40,521 nucleotides of DNA from Victivallales bacterium. Its GTDB lineage: Bacteria > Verrucomicrobiota > Lentisphaeria > Victivallales > Victivallaceae. Each line of letters opens with the position of its first letter. The first letter of the stretch is position 1. Below, in pieces: positions 18,609 through 40,521 of the stretch. Position numbers and translations under genes: made by a program. The stretch is taken from positions 1-40,521 of the forward strand of contig JAISIP010000045.1 of the NCBI GenBank assembly GCA_031261965.1. Reading direction: 5' to 3'. The notes below the pieces were generated by a model. It had not been told where the DNA came from and made no database searches. It was given only the letters and a program-made list of their open reading frames with translations.

Positions 18609-18616
18609 AATTATGA

Positions 18617-18691
18617 GTGCCTCTAAAAACCGAAAACTCGGTTAAAAATCGCACTTTCAAATTGCGAATATGTCGATCTTTAGAGATACCC
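18617..18691. repeat. Dispersed palindromic element, copy E (short form)
   Basis: GTGCCTCTAAAAACCG...GATCTTTAGAGATACCC between the nuclease start and hepT stop. Confidence 0.7.
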
Positions 18692-18698
18692 TATAGAT

Positions 18699-19034
18699 TT
18701 AGAGTTCAGATCGAAGTTGGACAAGGCGCTGATACAGGGGTTCAATATCTTTTACTATAGTTTCCCAAATGATTTCTTCCTCGGTTTTGACGTAATCATG
18801 TGCTACGGTATTGCGCATATTTTTGATCTGTCGCCATGGAATATCAGGATACTTCTGTTTGAGTGCATCTGAAATGGACGCTGCGTCTTCGCCAAGCATG
18901 ATGAATGCAAATTTTACGGCATACTGTTTTTCTATCGATGCGGCATATTCAGTTTCGGAGAGATTTGCCACAAATGTCAGGAGGGCATTGGCATTTTCGA
19001 TCATATGCTCAATGCGTTGTAGATCGCTTAGCAT
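18699..19034 (-). CDS. HepT-like (DUF86) toxin/ribonuclease family protein
   Basis: RX4HXY motif 'RNTVAHDY'; overlaps the upstream nucleotidyltransferase gene by 7 nt. Confidence 0.9.
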   Translation of the reverse strand: MLSDLQRIEHMIENANALLTFVANLSETEYAASIEKQYAVKFAFIMLGEDAASISDALKQKYPDIPWRQIKNMRNTVAHDYVKTEEEIIWETIVKDIEPLYQRLVQLRSEL

Positions 19035-19327
19035 ATTTTTAACATCTCTTTTTGAACATTACAGCTGAATTCATCGTTTTTTTGAAGCCGTCTTAACGAA
19101 ACAACATCAACTTGACAACCTAAAAGATCCGACAAATCAAGCTCCAAGCCGGCATGGTCAAAGAGCGTCGTATGCTCTTTGAATTCGGCGAGGAAATCGA
19201 CATCGCTATCGGGGGTTTCCTCTTTGCGGACGCAGGAGCCGAACACATACATCCTTTTGGCGTTGTGTTTTTTCGCGATACGATGGATTTCGGTTTTTAG
19301 GCTCTGAATTCTTTCAAGCCGGCACAT
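19028..19327 (-). CDS. MNT-type nucleotidyltransferase antitoxin
   Basis: GSX10DXD motif 'GSCVRKEETPDSDVD'; gene order MNT then HepT. Confidence 0.9.
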   Translation of the reverse strand: MCRLERIQSLKTEIHRIAKKHNAKRMYVFGSCVRKEETPDSDVDFLAEFKEHTTLFDHAGLELDLSDLLGCQVDVVSLRRLQKNDEFSCNVQKEMLKIC

Positions 19328-19350
19328 TTCAGTTCTCCACGTTTACTTCA

Positions 19351-19518
19351 GGGTATCTCTAAAAACTCACGTTGCGCTGAAAATTAGCAGATTCACAATT
19401 TGGATGTGTAATTTTGCAAGTATCAGGCTAACATAGAGTTAACCGAATATGTGCAATGTCGCGCATACGAATATGAGCTGCAAATTTCAGCCAAATTTCC
19501 AGTTTTTAGAGGTACCCT
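19351..19518 (-). repeat. Dispersed palindromic element, copy F (full-length, about 168 bp; inverted relative to G)
   Basis: GGGTATCTCTAAAAACTC...CCAGTTTTTAGAGGTACCCT. Internal GGCTAACATAGAGTTAACC is the exact reverse complement of a 19-mer in copy G. Confidence 0.85.
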
Positions 19519-20175: not shown

Positions 20176-23100
20176 TCACTCCATGGCGCGGACTTTCTCT
20201 TCGATAAAGGCGATCTCTTTTTCTTCCAGACCGTATTTTTTGTAGAGCTGGCGGTCGATCTCGGGAATGGATTTCGTCCAGTCGACGTCGCTCTTCGCCG
20301 TAAAGTCCTGCAACGGCACTTTGGCCCACTTGTCTTTCGGATTGTCCTGAGTGACTTTCAATATCCCGAGCATGGTGCGGGCAAACTTTGACTTCACATA
20401 CTTGAGGCAATTTTGTGCCTCGGATTCATGATCAAACGCTCCGATTGAGATGAAAGTTCCCGTGAACCCCACCAGGGGTTCCCCCACCAGGGGTGTACTC
20501 AATACTTCGCCGATTGCTCCAGAGCCATTAGATTTAGGAATAAGTACTTTATACGTTTTTATATTTTCGTGTTTCATATCCACAAATCGTTGAGGGATAT
20601 AACGGTAAACACGTTCGTTGTCAATTACTCCGAGAGTTTTTATATCATCAGCGTTTATCGGAGATTCTGTAAAAACGGCTATTTTATCAAAACTATTGCT
20701 CCTGAACCGTCGATCTTTTCCTCCGCTACCTATGACTTTTTTATACTGAGGATATTCTTTGAAAAGAACATCTAAATTGAATTTGTTTTGTATGTACATG
20801 ATCTCGGTCAAGCTGTCTGAGAGCTTATGAGGCGCGGCTTTCTTCATAATACTTTTTAGTTCTTTAAACGAGGTAAATGTTTCTATTGAACCAAAATCTT
20901 TTTGGGTGTCACGATATGTGATAGCCACGCCCCCTTTAATGTCTGTATTGGGAAACAAAGTTTTACTGTCTTGTTCGTAGTGTTCCACCTTGATATGCGG
21001 ATCACTCAGCATTTTATCATTCCAAGATTTGGAGGTCTGTCCGGCATTGAACAGAAATCGTGCTGGAGTAATGAGGCAGACTTTATCGGACGCATGATAA
21101 GCAAAGTCAATAAAAAAATTATAAATAGGCAGCCCCGCAGTATTGTCACCTGCTGCCTCTTCCTGATACGGGGGATTACCCACTACGGCGTCGAATTTCA
21201 TATCCAAGTTACCTCCGGTTTTGGCAATTTCGGTTAAATCGCGGTGGACAAGGTGCGAATTATCGATGTCCGCAAAGTTGCCATAAACAAAATTTTTCGC
21301 GATATTGTAGATGATCTCGCTCGGCGCGAATCCGTAAATCTGATTCTCAAGAATGTGTTTGAGCCGTTTATGTTTGTCGGGGATCGATTTTTTTAGCCCG
21401 GCATAGAGCCGCTTGACGATTTCGGCGAGGAACAGCCCGGATTTGACATACAAATCGGCAAAGGTTTTATCGGGGTCGGTGAACAAGCCGGGATTCTCTT
21501 TTTCCAGCGCATCGATCATCATTTTCACCACACGCTTGGGGGTGTAGATCTGATTGGTTCTCTGCGGTGGGATTGAATTGAAAATATCCTCGGTTTGCGT
21601 TTCGTCGAAGTAGTCGGCAAGTTGCTCTTTTTTGCTCAAAAACTTCCGCACTGAATCATCAAACACCTTAGAATCGAAAAATTGGCATTCATCGCGTAAA
21701 ACACGAAATTCGTCAAGCGTAATACTCGTGACCTCTTTGAACACCTGTTCGCTAATGTGCGTATCGAAATTGGCAAGCGTGGTGTCCGGCGTGCCGTACG
21801 CCATCAAAAACGGCGGAATGGTGCGGGAGAATCCGCGCAAACGAGCGCGGACATCGTCCTCAACAGAGTCTTTCTTCTTCACCTCGCCTTTTACCAGAAT
21901 CTCTTTGGTAATTTCGCGGGTAAGTTCTTCGGTGGTTTCTTCGATTTTATGAGCCAATTCCTCTTGTAAGTCGGCGTTGATCTTATCGCGCTCATGCTCA
22001 AAACGTTCTTTGGCTTCGGCGATAGCCGATTGGTCGCTTCCGGCCTCGGCAATGGCTCTTTCGCAAACGGTTTCCGCCTCGTGTAGCTTGATATCCGTTT
22101 GTCGCTTTATAATCTCCACCTCTCGACCAAGGACGTTGGCACCTCCCTCTACAATCTGCTCAGCTTGGGCCGCGCTTACGGAGCGTTCGGATGCCAAATC
22201 TTTGGCGATCGGTAAAGTGCGGTCTCTAAAACTTTTCTTAATCGTCCCGGCGGCTTCTTCGGGAGTTTTATCGATAATTTCGGCAACTACCTCTTGCACG
22301 TCGCCGTAAATTTTCCTGCCGAAACGCGCTTTGGTCGTGCCTATGGTAATCGCCGGCGGGATAATCGGATTTCCCTCGTCGTCAAGATTTACCTCTCTGG
22401 TATCGATCGGCGAACCGATTTTATCGGGAACGCGTTTGCCGGGTTTGACCGGCTTTAACTTTTCCAATATTTCGCGGGCTTTGGCGGAGGCGAATATTCC
22501 ACCGATATTCTGAAACAGCAAGTTGGACATGAAGCCGCGCCTGACCACCTCTTGCGCTTTGATAAAGGTCGGTATGGTCAACACTTGACGGACGTCAAGC
22601 TCAACCATTTTTCCCTCCTCGTCTTCGGCGATGACCGGGAAAAAGTTGAGCAATGCGCCGATGTTCTGCTCGCGTTCCTCCGATGTGCCGCCACCCTCAG
22701 CGGTGACTCCATCGAGATTGTTGGCGAACTGGTCGTAAAGAATCAGCGTCCGCTCCGGCGCGAAATCAAAGACATAGGCGTTCTCTTTGCGCCGTTTCTC
22801 GCCTTTCACCGTGTAGCTCCACGGATTTTGAGAGCGGAACGCCGCTTGCATGTATTGACTGGGGGACTTGAGGTTGGAGAGCATGATCACCGCCGTCCAC
22901 TCCGGCACGGTTACGCCGGTGGTGAGTTGCCCGACCGAGAGGGTTATGGTTTTGGGGTGTGTTTTGATCGCGCTTTTCACCCGGTCGAACGCTCTTTGCA
23001 TGACGACCTGGTCTTCGTTCTCATTTTCTTCGCTGTCATGGGATCTGCCATCGCCGGCCGCTAAAATCACCTCATATTCGCCAAAAATCGGGTGTTCTCT

Positions 23101-24435
23101 AAGCAGTTTCTCCAGAGCCTTGGCGCTTGCCACCCGACTGAGATACCAAAATGTGTGCTTGAGTTCGTCGCGCAGCGCGGGTGTGGAAAAGGGATACTTT
23201 TCATTTGTCGTTAAGGTGTCGAGCCAGGTTTTTACCTCGTTTTTGTGTACGAATTCGCCCTTGCTGTCAGTCAGGAAAAATTCGTTGAGGTCAAAGGCGA
23301 AATCCACGTTTTCGCCATCGATTTCCGCGCCTTGGTTCACCTCATCGGTGATCATTCGACTCATTTGATAGCTGAAGAGATTTAGGCGTGGCAAATTTTC
23401 GTAAGGATTGTTAGTCTCACTGTCGTTTGGATAGCTTTCTTTGGCATCCTGCTCATCGGCGTATGTCCAGTTGTAAATTTGCTCCGCCGAGAATTTACCG
23501 CTCGCTATCGCTTTAAACGGAGTCCCCGACAAATGCAAGGTAAAATTGCGTTTGATGTTGTTAAAAGCAGTGTCGGTTTTTACCGTCTCGATTCCCTCAT
23601 GGGCTTCGTCGATCACCAGCAAATCCCATGTTAACTCTTTGACGTAGTCAAGTTTGTCGTATGCCCCTCCAAAACATTTTGCGCCTTTCAGATCCTGCAA
23701 CGAAATGAAAGTTATACAGTCATAACACTCATCGGCACTCTTTCCGCTATTGGCGTTGATAAACTCTTCGCGGGTAATAACGGCGCGATCGCTCAAGCTG
23801 TCGGCAGTGGAGACAAATTTATATTTGGTCTGCCATGCGATAAATTTCTCAAAATCATCGAACCACGAGTTGGCAATCGCCGGGCGATTGGTTACAATTA
23901 GTACGCTTCGCGCTTTCATTTGGCGTGCCAAATCGTAAGTGGTAAGAGTTTTGCCGAAGCGCGGTTTGGCGTTCCACAAAAATTCGCCGCCGGGATGATC
24001 TGACGCGTAAGTTAGTGTAAGCTCCACCGCCTTTTGTTGTTCGACGCGTAACTGATAATCCATCGCAGCATTGACTTGATCGCGTTTCTTTTTGCGGAAA
24101 TCATCGAAATCGGTATGGGATTTCTCCGGCGTTCCGTTGTAGTAAAACCACTCGGTGTTCGCCCGCTGTTCGATATGTTTGAATTTTCTCAAAAAAGCGT
24201 GAAGTTGCCGGTCGGTGAACCATTCGTTTATTCCGATGAATTTAGCCGGCTCCGACCAGAGTTTAGCCGGTGTAATTCCGGCGGTGTGGGTTTGCTGTCT
24301 GATACGCTCGTTGACATCTTTGCGTTCGGTGTAGCCGATTTTTATCCACCCGTCGTTCGGTTTGTATTCAGGAAGAATATAGGCGTAAATTTGAGGATAA
24401 ACAGTTTTGACCGTCTTGATTTGCGTATTGTTCAC
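20176..24435 (-). CDS. Restriction-modification fusion: T5orf172/GIY-YIG-like nuclease + DEAH helicase + Eco57I-like N6-adenine methylase
   Basis: N-terminal 'YAYILPEYKPNDGWIKIGYTERKDVNERIRQ...TEWFYYNG'; 'AKPRFGKTLTTYDLA' Walker A; 'LLVIDEAHEG'; 'IYTPKRVVKMMIDAL...DLYVKSGLFLAEIVKRL'; 'DAVVGNPPYQEE'. Confidence 0.9.
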   Translation of the reverse strand: MNNTQIKTVKTVYPQIYAYILPEYKPNDGWIKIGYTERKDVNERIRQQTHTAGITPAKLWSEPAKFIGINEWFTDRQLHAFLRKFKHIEQRANTEWFYYNGTPEKSHTDFDDFRKKKRDQVNAAMDYQLRVEQQKAVELTLTYASDHPGGEFLWNAKPRFGKTLTTYDLARQMKARSVLIVTNRPAIANSWFDDFEKFIAWQTKYKFVSTADSLSDRAVITREEFINANSGKSADECYDCITFISLQDLKGAKCFGGAYDKLDYVKELTWDLLVIDEAHEGIETVKTDTAFNNIKRNFTLHLSGTPFKAIASGKFSAEQIYNWTYADEQDAKESYPNDSETNNPYENLPRLNLFSYQMSRMITDEVNQGAEIDGENVDFAFDLNEFFLTDSKGEFVHKNEVKTWLDTLTTNEKYPFSTPALRDELKHTFWYLSRVASAKALEKLLREHPIFGEYEVILAAGDGRSHDSEENENEDQVVMQRAFDRVKSAIKTHPKTITLSVGQLTTGVTVPEWTAVIMLSNLKSPSQYMQAAFRSQNPWSYTVKGEKRRKENAYVFDFAPERTLILYDQFANNLDGVTAEGGGTSEEREQNIGALLNFFPVIAEDEEGKMVELDVRQVLTIPTFIKAQEVVRRGFMSNLLFQNIGGIFASAKAREILEKLKPVKPGKRVPDKIGSPIDTREVNLDDEGNPIIPPAITIGTTKARFGRKIYGDVQEVVAEIIDKTPEEAAGTIKKSFRDRTLPIAKDLASERSVSAAQAEQIVEGGANVLGREVEIIKRQTDIKLHEAETVCERAIAEAGSDQSAIAEAKERFEHERDKINADLQEELAHKIEETTEELTREITKEILVKGEVKKKDSVEDDVRARLRGFSRTIPPFLMAYGTPDTTLANFDTHISEQVFKEVTSITLDEFRVLRDECQFFDSKVFDDSVRKFLSKKEQLADYFDETQTEDIFNSIPPQRTNQIYTPKRVVKMMIDALEKENPGLFTDPDKTFADLYVKSGLFLAEIVKRLYAGLKKSIPDKHKRLKHILENQIYGFAPSEIIYNIAKNFVYGNFADIDNSHLVHRDLTEIAKTGGNLDMKFDAVVGNPPYQEEAAGDNTAGLPIYNFFIDFAYHASDKVCLITPARFLFNAGQTSKSWNDKMLSDPHIKVEHYEQDSKTLFPNTDIKGGVAITYRDTQKDFGSIETFTSFKELKSIMKKAAPHKLSDSLTEIMYIQNKFNLDVLFKEYPQYKKVIGSGGKDRRFRSNSFDKIAVFTESPINADDIKTLGVIDNERVYRYIPQRFVDMKHENIKTYKVLIPKSNGSGAIGEVLSTPLVGEPLVGFTGTFISIGAFDHESEAQNCLKYVKSKFARTMLGILKVTQDNPKDKWAKVPLQDFTAKSDVDWTKSIPEIDRQLYKKYGLEEKEIAFIEEKVRAME

Positions 24436-24448
24436 TTGCCTCTCGCTC

Positions 24449-25447
24449 CTATTTGCCGAACGGCTCCATTTTGTAGGTGTTCCAATTCATGACCCTGACC
24501 GGATTGCCGGGAGTCGTGACAAACTTCGGCTCAGGCTCGAAACCCGAGAAATACCCGTCGTCGCCCTGAACTTTTTTCTTTCGCCCGGTGAGCGGGGGAG
24601 TACAGCTCAACCCATCCATCTGAAACACGTTGTAACTGAGGATCAAAGCGATGTTTTTCAGCAATCCTATAGTCGGATTCTTGCCCCATTTCGCATGGTA
24701 ATAATCGGCATAGGTATACAAAAGATTCTCCCGGGCAAGCAAAAGCGAATCGCCGTTCCACTCAAAACCGTAGCTCGCCTTAAACGCAAGCTCCGCCAAC
24801 CGCTGGTACTCCGCCAGGTCATCGCATTCGGCGTTGATTCGCGTCAGCTTGCGATCCACAAACCCCTCGCGCTTCCCCAGCGGAATCAGTTCGCCCGTAC
24901 CCATGTCGTAACGGGTCGCCATGTAAGGAGCTTCCCCGCAGGTTATCTCCAGCCACGTCCGGCGAATATAGGTCTCCAAATCATCGTTTTTGTAACTCTC
25001 ATCAATTGCGTCTGCCTGCAACTTCACAATCCGAATCGGGGTGAAAACCTCCGCTTGAGTTTTTGTGCGTTGTTTTTGCATTTCCGCCGACTTTAACGCC
25101 CGGGGCATGATCAGTGTGCCGTTCTTCCCGGTGATGAGATCGGGCTTGATTTGAGCGGTCGCGGCATAACGGGTCGCGCCGTACTCTTTGTAATTGTCGT
25201 TCGCCCAAATTATATTCCGGGGACGCGAAGGCTTTGATCGGTTCTGATCACGCAGCAAAAGATCAAGTATTTCGGGCATGGTTTCCCTGATTTTGCTTTC
25301 CAGAATATCGGCGGATCGTTCACTCATATCTTTACGGACACTCCCATTTTTGTATCTCGAAATATAGCACCTGAACAAGCGAAAACAAATCAAAGCGCAA
25401 GTTAATTGCGAAAAATTGTCGTTATATGTCGGTTTTGCAATCAGCAC
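24449..25447 (-). CDS. Methylase-like restriction system partner subunit (no NPPY seen); true start probably internal at MSERSADI (25327)
   Basis: 'AEVFTPIRIVKLQADAIDE', motif-I-like 'WLEITCGEAPYMATRYD', 'ARENLLYTYADYYHAKWG', 'ALILSYNVFQMDGL'; directly upstream of the 1419-aa fusion on the same strand. Confidence 0.75.
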   Translation of the reverse strand: MLIAKPTYNDNFSQLTCALICFRLFRCYISRYKNGSVRKDMSERSADILESKIRETMPEILDLLLRDQNRSKPSRPRNIIWANDNYKEYGATRYAATAQIKPDLITGKNGTLIMPRALKSAEMQKQRTKTQAEVFTPIRIVKLQADAIDESYKNDDLETYIRRTWLEITCGEAPYMATRYDMGTGELIPLGKREGFVDRKLTRINAECDDLAEYQRLAELAFKASYGFEWNGDSLLLARENLLYTYADYYHAKWGKNPTIGLLKNIALILSYNVFQMDGLSCTPPLTGRKKKVQGDDGYFSGFEPEPKFVTTPGNPVRVMNWNTYKMEPFGK

Positions 25448-25533: not shown

Positions 25534-26337
25534 ATGGAAAAGCAATCGAATCCTTGCGGCGAATTCTCATCGGCACTTTGCAACCACGCCAAAGCGGCGG
25601 TCAATATTCTGACCGTCGAACGGGCGTTGATTACCCGAATCAACCATATGCGGATTTTGCCGGAGTATGAGCGAATCCGTTATGGTACGCTTGAGCCGGA
25701 CGAGGTGGGCATCGCGCTGGCTTTTTCCAAATACTTGCCTGAGTCGGCGGTCGATCAAATGGATCTGGAATTCACGATTTGGGGTCGAAGTTGCCGTGCC
25801 GGGGAGTTTCGCTCTTATTTTCGTAAGCTCGGAGCAAAAATTCCCCAAAAGGAGTGTATAGTGGAGCTTTCGGGCGGTTCGCGTCTTGCTTTTGCCGAAA
25901 TAACCGCTCCGCATGGCGCATTGTTCGCCCCTGAGCATTTGTCGGGCGTGCCCGTCTTAAACGGTGCGTTGTTCCTCGCGGTAAGATTGAAGCTTATGGA
26001 GTCCTGCTTTCACGCCGACGACATCCCAAGTCACAGCGTCCGCATCGCCGAAGAGCCGCATTTGCCCCTTTTGGAGATAGAACGCTCACTCGAAGAGTAC
26101 CTCCGCCGGAAACTCCGGTCTCCCGTTGCCGTGGAGATCGATTCCCTTTCACCATTGCGGCGAATCGGGGGCAAGGAGATCCGATTCCGGGTAAGCTTGC
26201 TCGGCGTCGGGTCTGAAGCATTTGTCCGCCGTTTTCCGATCATCCGCCCCGAGTTCCCGAATTTAATGCATGCTCCGCTGGCGATATTGCCGGATACCGC
26301 CAGCGAAGATTACTTCACCGTGCTATGTGTGTATTAA
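25534..26337 (+). CDS. Hypothetical protein, divergent from the restriction module
   Basis: Intact 267-codon ORF with RBS-like 'AAAGGT' upstream. No family recognised by eye. Confidence 0.6.
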   Translation: MEKQSNPCGEFSSALCNHAKAAVNILTVERALITRINHMRILPEYERIRYGTLEPDEVGIALAFSKYLPESAVDQMDLEFTIWGRSCRAGEFRSYFRKLGAKIPQKECIVELSGGSRLAFAEITAPHGALFAPEHLSGVPVLNGALFLAVRLKLMESCFHADDIPSHSVRIAEEPHLPLLEIERSLEEYLRRKLRSPVAVEIDSLSPLRRIGGKEIRFRVSLLGVGSEAFVRRFPIIRPEFPNLMHAPLAILPDTASEDYFTVLCVY

Positions 26338-26388
26338 GGATACCTCTAAAAAAACAGCGACTTTTGCAAAATACCAAAAGCCGCTGTC
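26338..26388. repeat. Partial palindromic element, left end, with terminator hairpin (left flank of yefM-yoeB)
   Basis: GGATACCTCTAAAAA terminal repeat immediately after the stop at 26337, running into AAAAAAACAGCGACTTTTGCAAAATACCAAAAGCCGCTG. Confidence 0.75.
26348..26386 (-). terminator. Rho-independent terminator for yoeB-like gene
   Basis: On the minus strand: CAGCGGCTTTTGGTATTTTGCAAAAGTCGCTGTTTTTTT, 12-bp stem (one G-U) and T7 tail. Confidence 0.85.
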
Positions 26389-26392
26389 AAGG

Positions 26393-26650
26393 TCAGTAGT
26401 GATAGCGAAGCTGGGCAATTATCAACGTGTCACCATCCATTTTGTAAACCATTCGATCTACTTCGGTAATACGACGCGACCACCACGAGCTGAGATTACC
26501 TTTCAGCGGTTCAGGCTTGCCGATCCCCTCAAAAGGAGTGCGAATACAGACTTTTATTAGCTCATTTATTCTTTTGACGATTTTTTTATTCGATGATTGC
26601 CAATAGATATACTCTTCCCAAGCCTGCGGTGAAAATTTAAGATTGGCCAT
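26393..26650 (-). CDS. yoeB: Txe/YoeB-family mRNA interferase toxin
   Basis: 'LKFSPQAWEEYIYWQSSNKKIVKRINELIKVCIRTPFEGIGKPEPLKGNLSSWWSRRITEVDRMVYKMDGDTLIIAQLRYHY'. Confidence 0.95.
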   Translation of the reverse strand: MANLKFSPQAWEEYIYWQSSNKKIVKRINELIKVCIRTPFEGIGKPEPLKGNLSSWWSRRITEVDRMVYKMDGDTLIIAQLRYHY

Positions 26651-26903
26651 TGAGAAGCGACTCCAAATCTTTTTCTATGGCATCACCTTTTTCCAGCGAG
26701 TCAATCGAGGCGATTAGGCGTTTGGCGTTTTTGGGACTACGCAGCAAATAAACGGTTTCCGCCCATGCTTCGTAATCATCCAAGCCCATCATTACCACCG
26801 CATCTTTCTTTTTTCGGATAATCACCGGAATCCTGTTTCTTATCACTTTGTTGATAGTTTCGGACAAATCGGCTCTGGCAGCGGAGTAACTCATAACGTC
26901 CAT
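26637..26903 (-). CDS. yefM: YefM/Phd-family antitoxin (start at 26903)
   Basis: 'MDVMSYSAARADLSETINKVIRNRIPVIIRKKKDAVVMMGLDDYEAWAETVYLLRSPKNAKRL'; RBS AAAGGA upstream; overlaps the toxin start. Confidence 0.93.
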   Translation of the reverse strand: MDVMSYSAARADLSETINKVIRNRIPVIIRKKKDAVVMMGLDDYEAWAETVYLLRSPKNAKRLIASIDSLEKGDAIEKDLESLLNGQS

Positions 26904-26921
26904 AATATATATCCTTTGAGT

Positions 26922-26940
26922 TGTACAATAATAATGTACA
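26922..26940. promoter_or_regulatory. Putative YefM-YoeB operator: paired TGTACA palindromes
   Basis: TTGTACAATAATAATGTACAT: TGTACA at 26922-26927 and 26935-26940, 13 bp between centres, just upstream of yefM. Confidence 0.7.
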
Positions 26941-26972
26941 TCATTGTTGAAGGAAATCAAGATTAAAAAAAC

Positions 26973-27011
26973 AAAAAAACAGCGACTTTTGCAAAATGCC
27001 AAAAGCCGCTG
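26973..27011 (-). terminator. Rho-independent terminator for pgk, near-identical to 26348-26386
   Basis: On the minus strand: CAGCGGCTTTTGGCATTTTGCAAAAGTCGCTGTTTTTTT. Differs from the yoeB terminator at one of 39 positions. Confidence 0.85.
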
Positions 27012-27042
27012 ATAGCCAAATTTCCAGTTTTTAGAGGGAGTC
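27012..27042. repeat. Partial palindromic element, right end
   Basis: TAGCCAAATTTCCAGTTTTTAGAGGGAGTC matches the terminal sequence of copies F and G (AGCCAAATTTCCAGTTTTTAGAGG). Confidence 0.8.
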
Positions 27043-27047
27043 AAAAG

Positions 27048-28301
27048 TTACTTATCGGTGAGTGCAACCACTCCGGGCAGCTCCTTGCCCTCAAGGTATT
27101 CGAGCGACGCGCCGCCGCCGGTGGAGATGTGGCTCATCTTATCCGCCAAGCCGGACTTGTTCACCGCCGAAACACTGTCGCCACCACCGATAATCGAAAC
27201 TCCGCCGTTGGCTTTGACTTCGGCGACCGCTTTGCAGACTCCAAAAGTTCCGTTGGCGAATTTCGGCATCTCAAAACATCCCATCGGACCATTCCAAACC
27301 ACGGTTTTGGCACTTTTAATCGCGTCGGCGTAAAGTGCTGTGGTCTTCGGACCGATGTCGAGTGCCATCCAACCTCCGGGAATATCATCGCCGACGATTT
27401 GCGTATTCGCTTCGGCATCGAATTTGTCGGCGGCAACGTTGTCCACCGGCAAGAGGAAGTTGACTTTGAGCTCTTTCGCCTTGGCGATCATCTCGTTGGC
27501 GTAGTCAAGCTGATCCTGTTCACAAAGCGAGTTGCCCACGTCGTGACCTTGCGCCTTGAGGAACGTGTAAGCCATCCCCCCGCCGATAATAAGCGTATCG
27601 ACTTTGGTCAGCAAATTTTTGACCACCGCGAGCTTGTCGGAGACTTTTGCCCCGCCGAGAATCGCGACGAACGGACGCACCGGAGTCTCCACCGCGCTGC
27701 CGAGGTAGGCGATCTCTTTTTCCATCAGAAACCCGGCGACCGCCGGCTTCAGAAATTTGGTGATAACCGCAGTTGAAGCATGGGCGCGGTGAGCCGTGCC
27801 AAACGCGTCATTGCAGTAAATATCGCCGTAAGACGCCAATTTTTCGGCGAGCTTAAGCTGTTTGGCTTTCATCTCGGACTTTTTCGCGGCGTATTCGTCG
27901 TCGCTCATGCCCTCTTTCTTCTTGACTTTGCCTTGTTCCTCGGCGTAAAAGCGGGTGTTTTCAAGCATGACCACATCGCCGGGCTTCATCGCTTGAACCT
28001 CTTTGTCGGCATTGGCGCAATCGGGAGCGAAAGTCACCGCTTTGCCGAGCATTTTGGACAAATACTCCGCCACCGGCTTGAGGCTGAAATCCGCCTCGTA
28101 ACCTTTTTCCGCCGGGCGGCCGAGGTGACTCATGAGTACCAGACTGCCGCCGTTGTCCAACACATATTTGATCGACGTAAGCGCGCCTTTGATCCGGGTG
28201 TCGTCTTTGATGACTCCCTCTTTGATCGGAACATTAAAATCAACGCGCATAACTACGCGCTTGCCTTTGAGATCGACGTCGCGGAGTGTTTTCTTATCCA
28301 T
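27048..28301 (-). CDS. pgk: Phosphoglycerate kinase
   Basis: '[30 protein letters not shown]', 'LMSHLGRP', '[16 protein letters not shown]', '[18 protein letters not shown]', 'GGGDSVSAV'. Confidence 0.98.
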
Positions 28302-39784: not shown

Positions 39785-40422
39785 TAATATCGGTACGCGC
39801 TGCCTCCTGCCCACATATATTTGAGCTCATCTGATGACCCGTAAGAGTTTGCCGGCGTGCACGCAATATTGGTTGATCCGTCGGGATTGCTTATTCCGAC
39901 AATCGTTCCGGGTGGATTGACTTTGCGCGGGGACATCGCCTGAACATGTCCGTCAAGAAAACCAATCGGGGTGGAAGTCAAATGTACATCGCCAAGAGGT
40001 CGATACGCACCGTCGATGCTCCCCGCCAAAGAGGTAAGTCCCTCGGCTCGATCTCCCACAATAATCCGCAGGGAAGGTTTTTTTACCAAAGGTGCATTAA
40101 GTATGCTTGACAAAACAATTGCCCCCTCGGAATATCCGCAAGCGGGATTCCAACCATAGGTTTCGCCCAGTCCGCCGATATAATTCCACCAATCCGTATG
40201 TGCGCCTTGAATACCGCCAATGGTCTTGTTGCTCGACGGGCAACGCAATTTTACTTGAATATAGTTGACGCTTTTACCCTGCAAAGTATATTCCGGGGCG
40301 TATCCCATTGAAACAAACCGGACTTCCCAGCGTATCTTGTCATACAAAAAAGGAGCAGTCATCCCCCGAAAATCACCCATATATGAGGCATTGTAAGAAT
40401 TGAGGCAACCTCTAAAAACCAT
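39784..40422 (-). pseudogene. Type II secretion/pseudopilin-like (DUF1559/H-X9-DG) protein lacking its N-terminal pilin helix
   Basis: 'RGCLNSYNASYMGDFRG...IGFLDGHVQAMSPRKVNP...YMWAGGSAYRY'. No 'FTLIELLVVIAIIAILA' segment upstream; the apparent start codon lies inside a palindrome. Confidence 0.6.
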
Positions 40423-40434
40423 TTTTTAGAGGTT
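40407..40434. repeat. Minimal palindromic element, copy H (hairpin of the terminal repeat only)
   Basis: AACCTCTAAAAA-CCAT-TTTTTAGAGGTT, perfect 12-bp stem with 4-nt loop. Confidence 0.8.
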
Positions 40435-40521
40435 TTGTATTAAACATAGTTCCGTTTTTTTGAATTTTACCAGTTTTTTGTCGCGTTTTTTCTGTTTTAT
40501 ACCCGGTTATTTTGGGGCGAT

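Follow-up and report, generated by a model that had tools for sequence, protein, structure and literature searches.

A yefM-yoeB toxin-antitoxin cassette between two near-identical predicted terminators downstream of pgk in a Victivallales bacterium

How does a small toxin-antitoxin (TA) operon come to lie between two near-identical direct repeats, each resembling a terminator and each abutting an end of a dispersed element? The question is raised by a locus in the 40,521-nucleotide contig JAISIP010000045.1 (here, the window) of a Victivallales bacterium, whose assembly is an incomplete MAG of 2.38 Mb in 209 contigs. Along the minus strand, the pgk stop codon is followed by a 40-nt spacer, terminator copy 1 (T1), a TGTACA palindrome, yefM, yoeB and terminator copy 2 (T2). 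Beyond T2 lies the 3' end of a convergent gene of no assigned function with its stop at 26337. The pgk gene (27048-28301, minus strand) encodes phosphoglycerate kinase (PF00162, 4.1e-159). The antitoxin gene yefM (26637-26903, minus strand) matches PF02604 (PhdYefM) at 5.6e-18 and NF008499 at 5e-25, the latter below the cut-off of that model, while yoeB (26393-26650, minus strand) encodes an 85-residue toxin (PF06769, 3.4e-36; TIGR02116, 2.4e-30). Together, the two genes span 26393-26903 on the minus strand and, with a YoeB-family toxin and a Phd/YefM-family antitoxin in one operon, the antitoxin first and the genes overlapping, they would be classified from sequence as a type II YefM-YoeB system. 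Upstream of yefM is a TGTACA-N7-TGTACA palindrome (26922-26940) that is YefM-operator-like, and similar TGTACA motifs are also found upstream of yefM in relatives. With this palindrome, the cassette of 586 bp, which holds only yefM-yoeB, has its own putative control region.

The direct repeats, T2 at 26348-26386 (3' of yoeB) and T1 at 26973-27011 (its stem starting 40 nt past the pgk stop), are 39 nt long, 38/39 identical and spaced by 625. The pair is far beyond chance, and the genome contains no third copy at ≤3 mismatches. An earlier, first-pass annotation of the sequence had described 39-bp direct repeats that differ at one position and had taken each for a minus-strand terminator, and both descriptions hold up. 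In each repeat, a minus-strand hairpin followed by T7 is predicted (-18.3 kcal/mol for T1 and -20.7 kcal/mol for T2) with a same-strand stop codon before it, as in rho-independent terminators, and we infer that both work as such in the cell. Because the terminator is duplicated around the TA pair, pgk and yoeB would each end in a copy of one hairpin, and the TA operon would be shielded from read-through from pgk. The boundaries of the repeat are those of the hairpin plus T-run, suggesting that one or the other took part in the event. Excision of the TA pair by recombination between the two repeats would be plausible.

Where does the repeat come from? The interior of the dispersed element, a MITE, was considered as its source and rejected, as alignment to the MITE consensus was no better than that of shuffles (P=0.34 for T1). 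By contrast, in each of the TA-free congeners G002 and G003, pgk is followed by one similar terminator only, 37-38 nt past its stop. In a comparison of hairpins of ~40 nt, T2 and T1 rank first and second among 1,281 terminator candidates of their own genome in similarity to the pgk terminator of G002, with scores of 38 and 37 against a median of 16; for shuffles, the corresponding score was 17.5 +/- 4.2 against 37. For the pgk terminator of G003, T2 and T1 score 31 and 31 and are the two best of the 1,281, with a lead of only one point over the next-best terminators. The pgk terminators of G001, G005, G006, G007 and G008 do not resemble the repeat; the pgk gene of G005 is as close as that of G003 (94% identity), yet its terminator is unlike the repeat. 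Based on the congener matches, the spacing to the stop codon and the lack of resemblance to the MITE, the best reading is that T1 is the inherited pgk terminator and T2 its copy. The first-pass annotation had the cassette entering at, or duplicating, an element or terminator downstream of pgk, and had suggested a look at TA-free pgk regions in relatives for both. The terminator half of this idea is supported: the repeats are the best matches to the terminators of G002 and G003, which in these TA-free genomes are single. The other half is not, because the congeners lack the MITE, which was, thus, not the ancestral landing site there. The empty site is reconstructed from congeners rather than from strains of the same species, and in these congeners a different gene lies beyond pgk.

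The TA pair is absent from seven of the eight congeners. A YoeB homologue is present in 1/8 congeners and in 8/52 other relatives and, if this genome is counted, in 10/61. The relatives of YoeB at 66-85% identity are from Lentisphaeria and Verrucomicrobia MAGs, and GC content is 41% in the cassette, 49% in the genome sample and 55% in pgk. From this patchy distribution and AT-richness, the cassette was probably acquired horizontally. In G060, a member of another family and the nearest relative in our first search (YoeB 68% identical), similarity extends only slightly beyond the stop of yoeB, after which there is no terminator like T2. A boundary at this point fits an operon that came in horizontally without T2.

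Based on these data, we suggest that yefM-yoeB was inserted behind the pgk terminator in this lineage by a recombinational route, that the terminator was copied to the far side, and that the MITE ends are separate remnants; we put the probability of this reading at roughly 0.6. We infer the following order of events. First, yefM-yoeB, together with the operator-like palindrome of the operon, would have been gained horizontally. Second, it would have gone in directly downstream of the pgk terminator. Third, the insertion event would have left a second copy of this terminator beyond yoeB. The MITE ends on either side would be leftovers of separate MITE insertions or deletions in the same intergenic space rather than the vehicle. 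The likeliest route would be recombinational and independent of a MITE transposase, i.e. integration assisted by homology or by a hairpin, or a switch of template at the terminator and its T-run; we identified no enzyme or known mechanism for duplicating a terminator in this way. Against this reading stand the unlike pgk terminators of five congeners, the short hairpins on which the terminator comparison is based, and the position of both repeat copies directly next to MITE ends, a coincidence under a purely independent history; a MITE insertion or deletion may have taken part in the event.

Could T1 instead be the leftover of an earlier TA copy? If yefM-yoeB had been duplicated in tandem together with its terminator, decay of the earlier copy could have left its terminator behind pgk. 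A precedent exists in another genome (L248), in which the flanking repeat is explained by a decayed tandem copy of yoeB. However, between pgk and T1 there is no remnant of yoeB, only the 40-nt spacer with a MITE end, and T1 lies about as far from the pgk stop as the pgk terminators of congeners, which it also matches. We, therefore, regard a tandem origin as unlikely.

The role of the MITE is best judged from the family as a whole, which we analyzed in ~1.42 Mb (about 60%) of the genome read as stretches. The element is ~167 bp, hairpin-forming and non-coding, with 19-bp terminal inverted repeats. In this sample, 101 full copies of 160-172 bp were aligned, giving a consensus of 166 bp that folds over nearly its full length as a hairpin (-88.5 kcal/mol). 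The copies have a mean identity to the consensus of 83%, and no two of the 101 are identical. Target duplications of 4 bp, most commonly TAAA, TTTA, TTAA, TTGA and TCAA, are perfect in 75 of the full copies and match at three of four positions in 16 more. Thus, the family has the terminal inverted repeats, lack of coding capacity, many copies and fixed-length target duplication that define a MITE. The genome contains 339 matches to the MITE ends (≤1 mismatch); the eight congeners have none, and among 136 other genomes of the order three have a single match and the rest none. As sampled, the family is, therefore, restricted to this species, and as far as we have searched it has not been described. 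No transposase bearing MITE ends was found among matches to the three DDE families PF01609, PF13586 and PF13751 in the species' own incomplete assembly, and the viral contigs contained no match to the MITE. One intact transposase copy was considered as an autonomous partner and rejected for lack of matching ends. Present about every 7 kb and, as sampled, in a single species of the order, the family offers a good example of a burst of element copies for which no transposase was detected. In a separate observation, a full MITE abuts a DDE_Tnp_1 transposase gene fragment near 7138-7597 of L294 (G000:C35) and possibly interrupts the gene.

At the pgk locus, the left MITE end (GGATACCTCTAAAAA, ~15 bp, 26338-26352) is flanked by TTAA, carries the inverted-repeat variant GGATAC, of which the genome sample contains 27 occurrences, and has an A-run that fuses with the A7 of T2. 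The right MITE end (TAGCCAAATTTCCAGTTTTTAGAGGGAGTC, 30 bp, 27013-27042) lies between the pgk stop and T1 and includes TAGCCAAATTTCCAGTTTTTAGAGG at 27013-27037; its outermost bases have diverged (AGAGGGAGTC versus AGAGGTAGCC in other copies). The 22-mer CCAAATTTCCAGTTTTTAGAGG has four matches in the window (≤3 mismatches) and none in shuffles. The TA pair had earlier been described as bracketed by a left and a right element end, and both are indeed there, with the right end now placed at 27013-27037 and the left end only ~15 bp long.

In principle, these ends could delimit a mobile insertion cassette, with the TA pair as cargo and the 705-bp unit 26338-27042 moved whole by the transposase of the family. 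The two ends face outward in the correct orientation, TTAA at the left is a common MITE target, and collapsing the 39-bp repeats onto each other yields an 80-bp MITE-ended hairpin, within the size class of short copies; moreover, mobile insertion cassettes with passenger genes have been described (PMC5444012). However, the 705-bp unit has no target-site duplication, its outer flanks, TTAA and AAAA, agreeing at 2/4 positions as compared to perfect duplications in 75/101 full copies. The right end has diverged at its terminal bases, the MITE interior is missing from the interval, neither the cassette nor the unit has a second copy in the genome, and no transposase with MITE ends was found in the three DDE families. 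In addition, part of the unit, namely the pgk terminator, is native to this locus. Finally, random placement of the 89 unpaired MITE ends (≤2 mismatches) in the sample gives 1.2 expected outward-facing end pairs 300-1000 bp apart, with a probability of 0.70 for at least one; the sample contains two such pairs, and one of these is a MITE in which a second element is nested. Because such brackets are expected at random, the flanking MITE ends are no evidence for a unit. We, therefore, consider it improbable that a composite palindromic element carries the TA pair as cargo, as the first-pass annotation had proposed, and its suggested search for other genes carried between the same ends gave no convincing case in 1.42 Mb.

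Three candidates for other such units were rejected. A 3-kb inverted-repeat pair in L115 encloses several apparently unrelated genes, has weak ends and was judged to be due to chance; a 333-bp pair in L105 is the MITE with the nested element. In the case of hepT-mntA, the right MITE has its own duplication (TTCA/TTCA), which is not shared by the left MITE; the two are, therefore, separate insertions. This HepT-like/MntA-like pair (18699-19330) lies between its two MITE copies at 18615-19517 of the window. The second element, a repeated one with the inverted ends AGAGCTTATCAACTAATAAACG, is found inside the MITE copy in L105 (11270-11430) and adjoins a MITE end in L056. We also observed 34-bp near-perfect palindromes in which two MITE-like ends adjoin each other back to back (GGCAACCTCTAAAAACCATTTTTTAGAGGTTGCC) at 40404-40437 of the window, at 85-118 of L085 and at 1522-1555 of L110.

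Least probable of all is that a site-specific recombinase used the terminator as its attachment site and that the locus is a decayed genomic island with attL and attR, because, even though the 39-bp repeat, lying at the 3' end of a housekeeping gene, looks like an att duplication and the host gene's terminator is preserved, no integrase lies between the repeats and the small cassette holds yefM-yoeB only.

Genomic islands and integrative elements at the 3' ends of genes are flanked by direct repeats and restore the host 3' signals. The insertion behind pgk is similar to them in being located behind a housekeeping gene and flanked by direct repeats, but differs in the lack of an integrase, in a cassette of only 586 bp and in a repeat that is a terminator hairpin plus T-run. 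Passenger genes are known to lie between MITE- or transposon-type ends in units that lack a transposase (PMC5444012, PMC4133298), and in this respect the locus is like mobile insertion cassettes and mosaic elements of the TIME type; unlike them, it has no target duplication, is single-copy and includes its own pgk terminator. Among bacterial MITEs, the BOX element of Streptococcus pneumoniae is, like the family described here, short and non-coding with terminal inverted repeats and many intergenic copies, and upstream of pneumococcal yefM-yoeB a BOX element supplies a second promoter (PMC6162744). By contrast, the MITE ends here are outside the duplicated terminators, and there is no MITE in the TA promoter.

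If the pgk terminator was copied during insertion, do similar duplications occur elsewhere? A scan for non-MITE terminators that lie on the same strand within 6 kb of each other, in which the window pair was set aside by the MITE mask, gave two near-identical pairs (L191 and L156) and, thus, three with the window pair, all around accessory genes; none of 13,075 random terminator pairs reached even half the similarity of these two. In L191 (G000:C47, 5473-6830), downstream of a sugar-isomerase-like gene, a single DUF4143/AAA_14 ATPase gene lies between terminators that are ~39/42 identical (92.9% over 42 positions). In L156, the pair is part of a longer duplicated leader-like stretch of ~230 bp and encloses an HTH-containing putative TA beside cas1-cas2-csn2; the partner toxin has no Pfam match and the TA status is, therefore, a guess from open reading frames. 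The same locus (G000:C189, 131-3600) also has a full MITE in the leader-like region and CRISPR-repeat-like fragments next to cas1-cas2-csn2. Beyond the window, flanking repeats at 79 other YoeB loci are mostly low-complexity repeats or boundary artefacts; among these loci, besides L248 with its decayed yoeB copy, a YoeB pair in a Bacillota MAG (L271) lies between 73-bp repeats containing a terminator-like hairpin. A limited literature search returned no report of a terminator duplicated around a TA cassette.

Because these cases are few and differ in age and extent, a common mechanism is only a suggestion. We speculate, while considering it doubtful, that host-gene terminators in this lineage are preferred landing and duplication sites for small accessory cassettes, such as TA pairs and the DUF4143 ATPase, via hairpin- or T-run-assisted recombination in which the host keeps its terminator and the newcomer gains a copy. 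If terminator duplication accompanies cassette capture, this would explain how small accessory operons become established downstream of housekeeping genes and leave them undisturbed, and a duplicated terminator would be a readable scar for finding such insertions. Elsewhere in the window, a large fused restriction-modification-like gene (ResIII, N6_Mtase, Eco57I and T5orf172) is found at 20176-25447, with a second gene upstream at 24449-25447.
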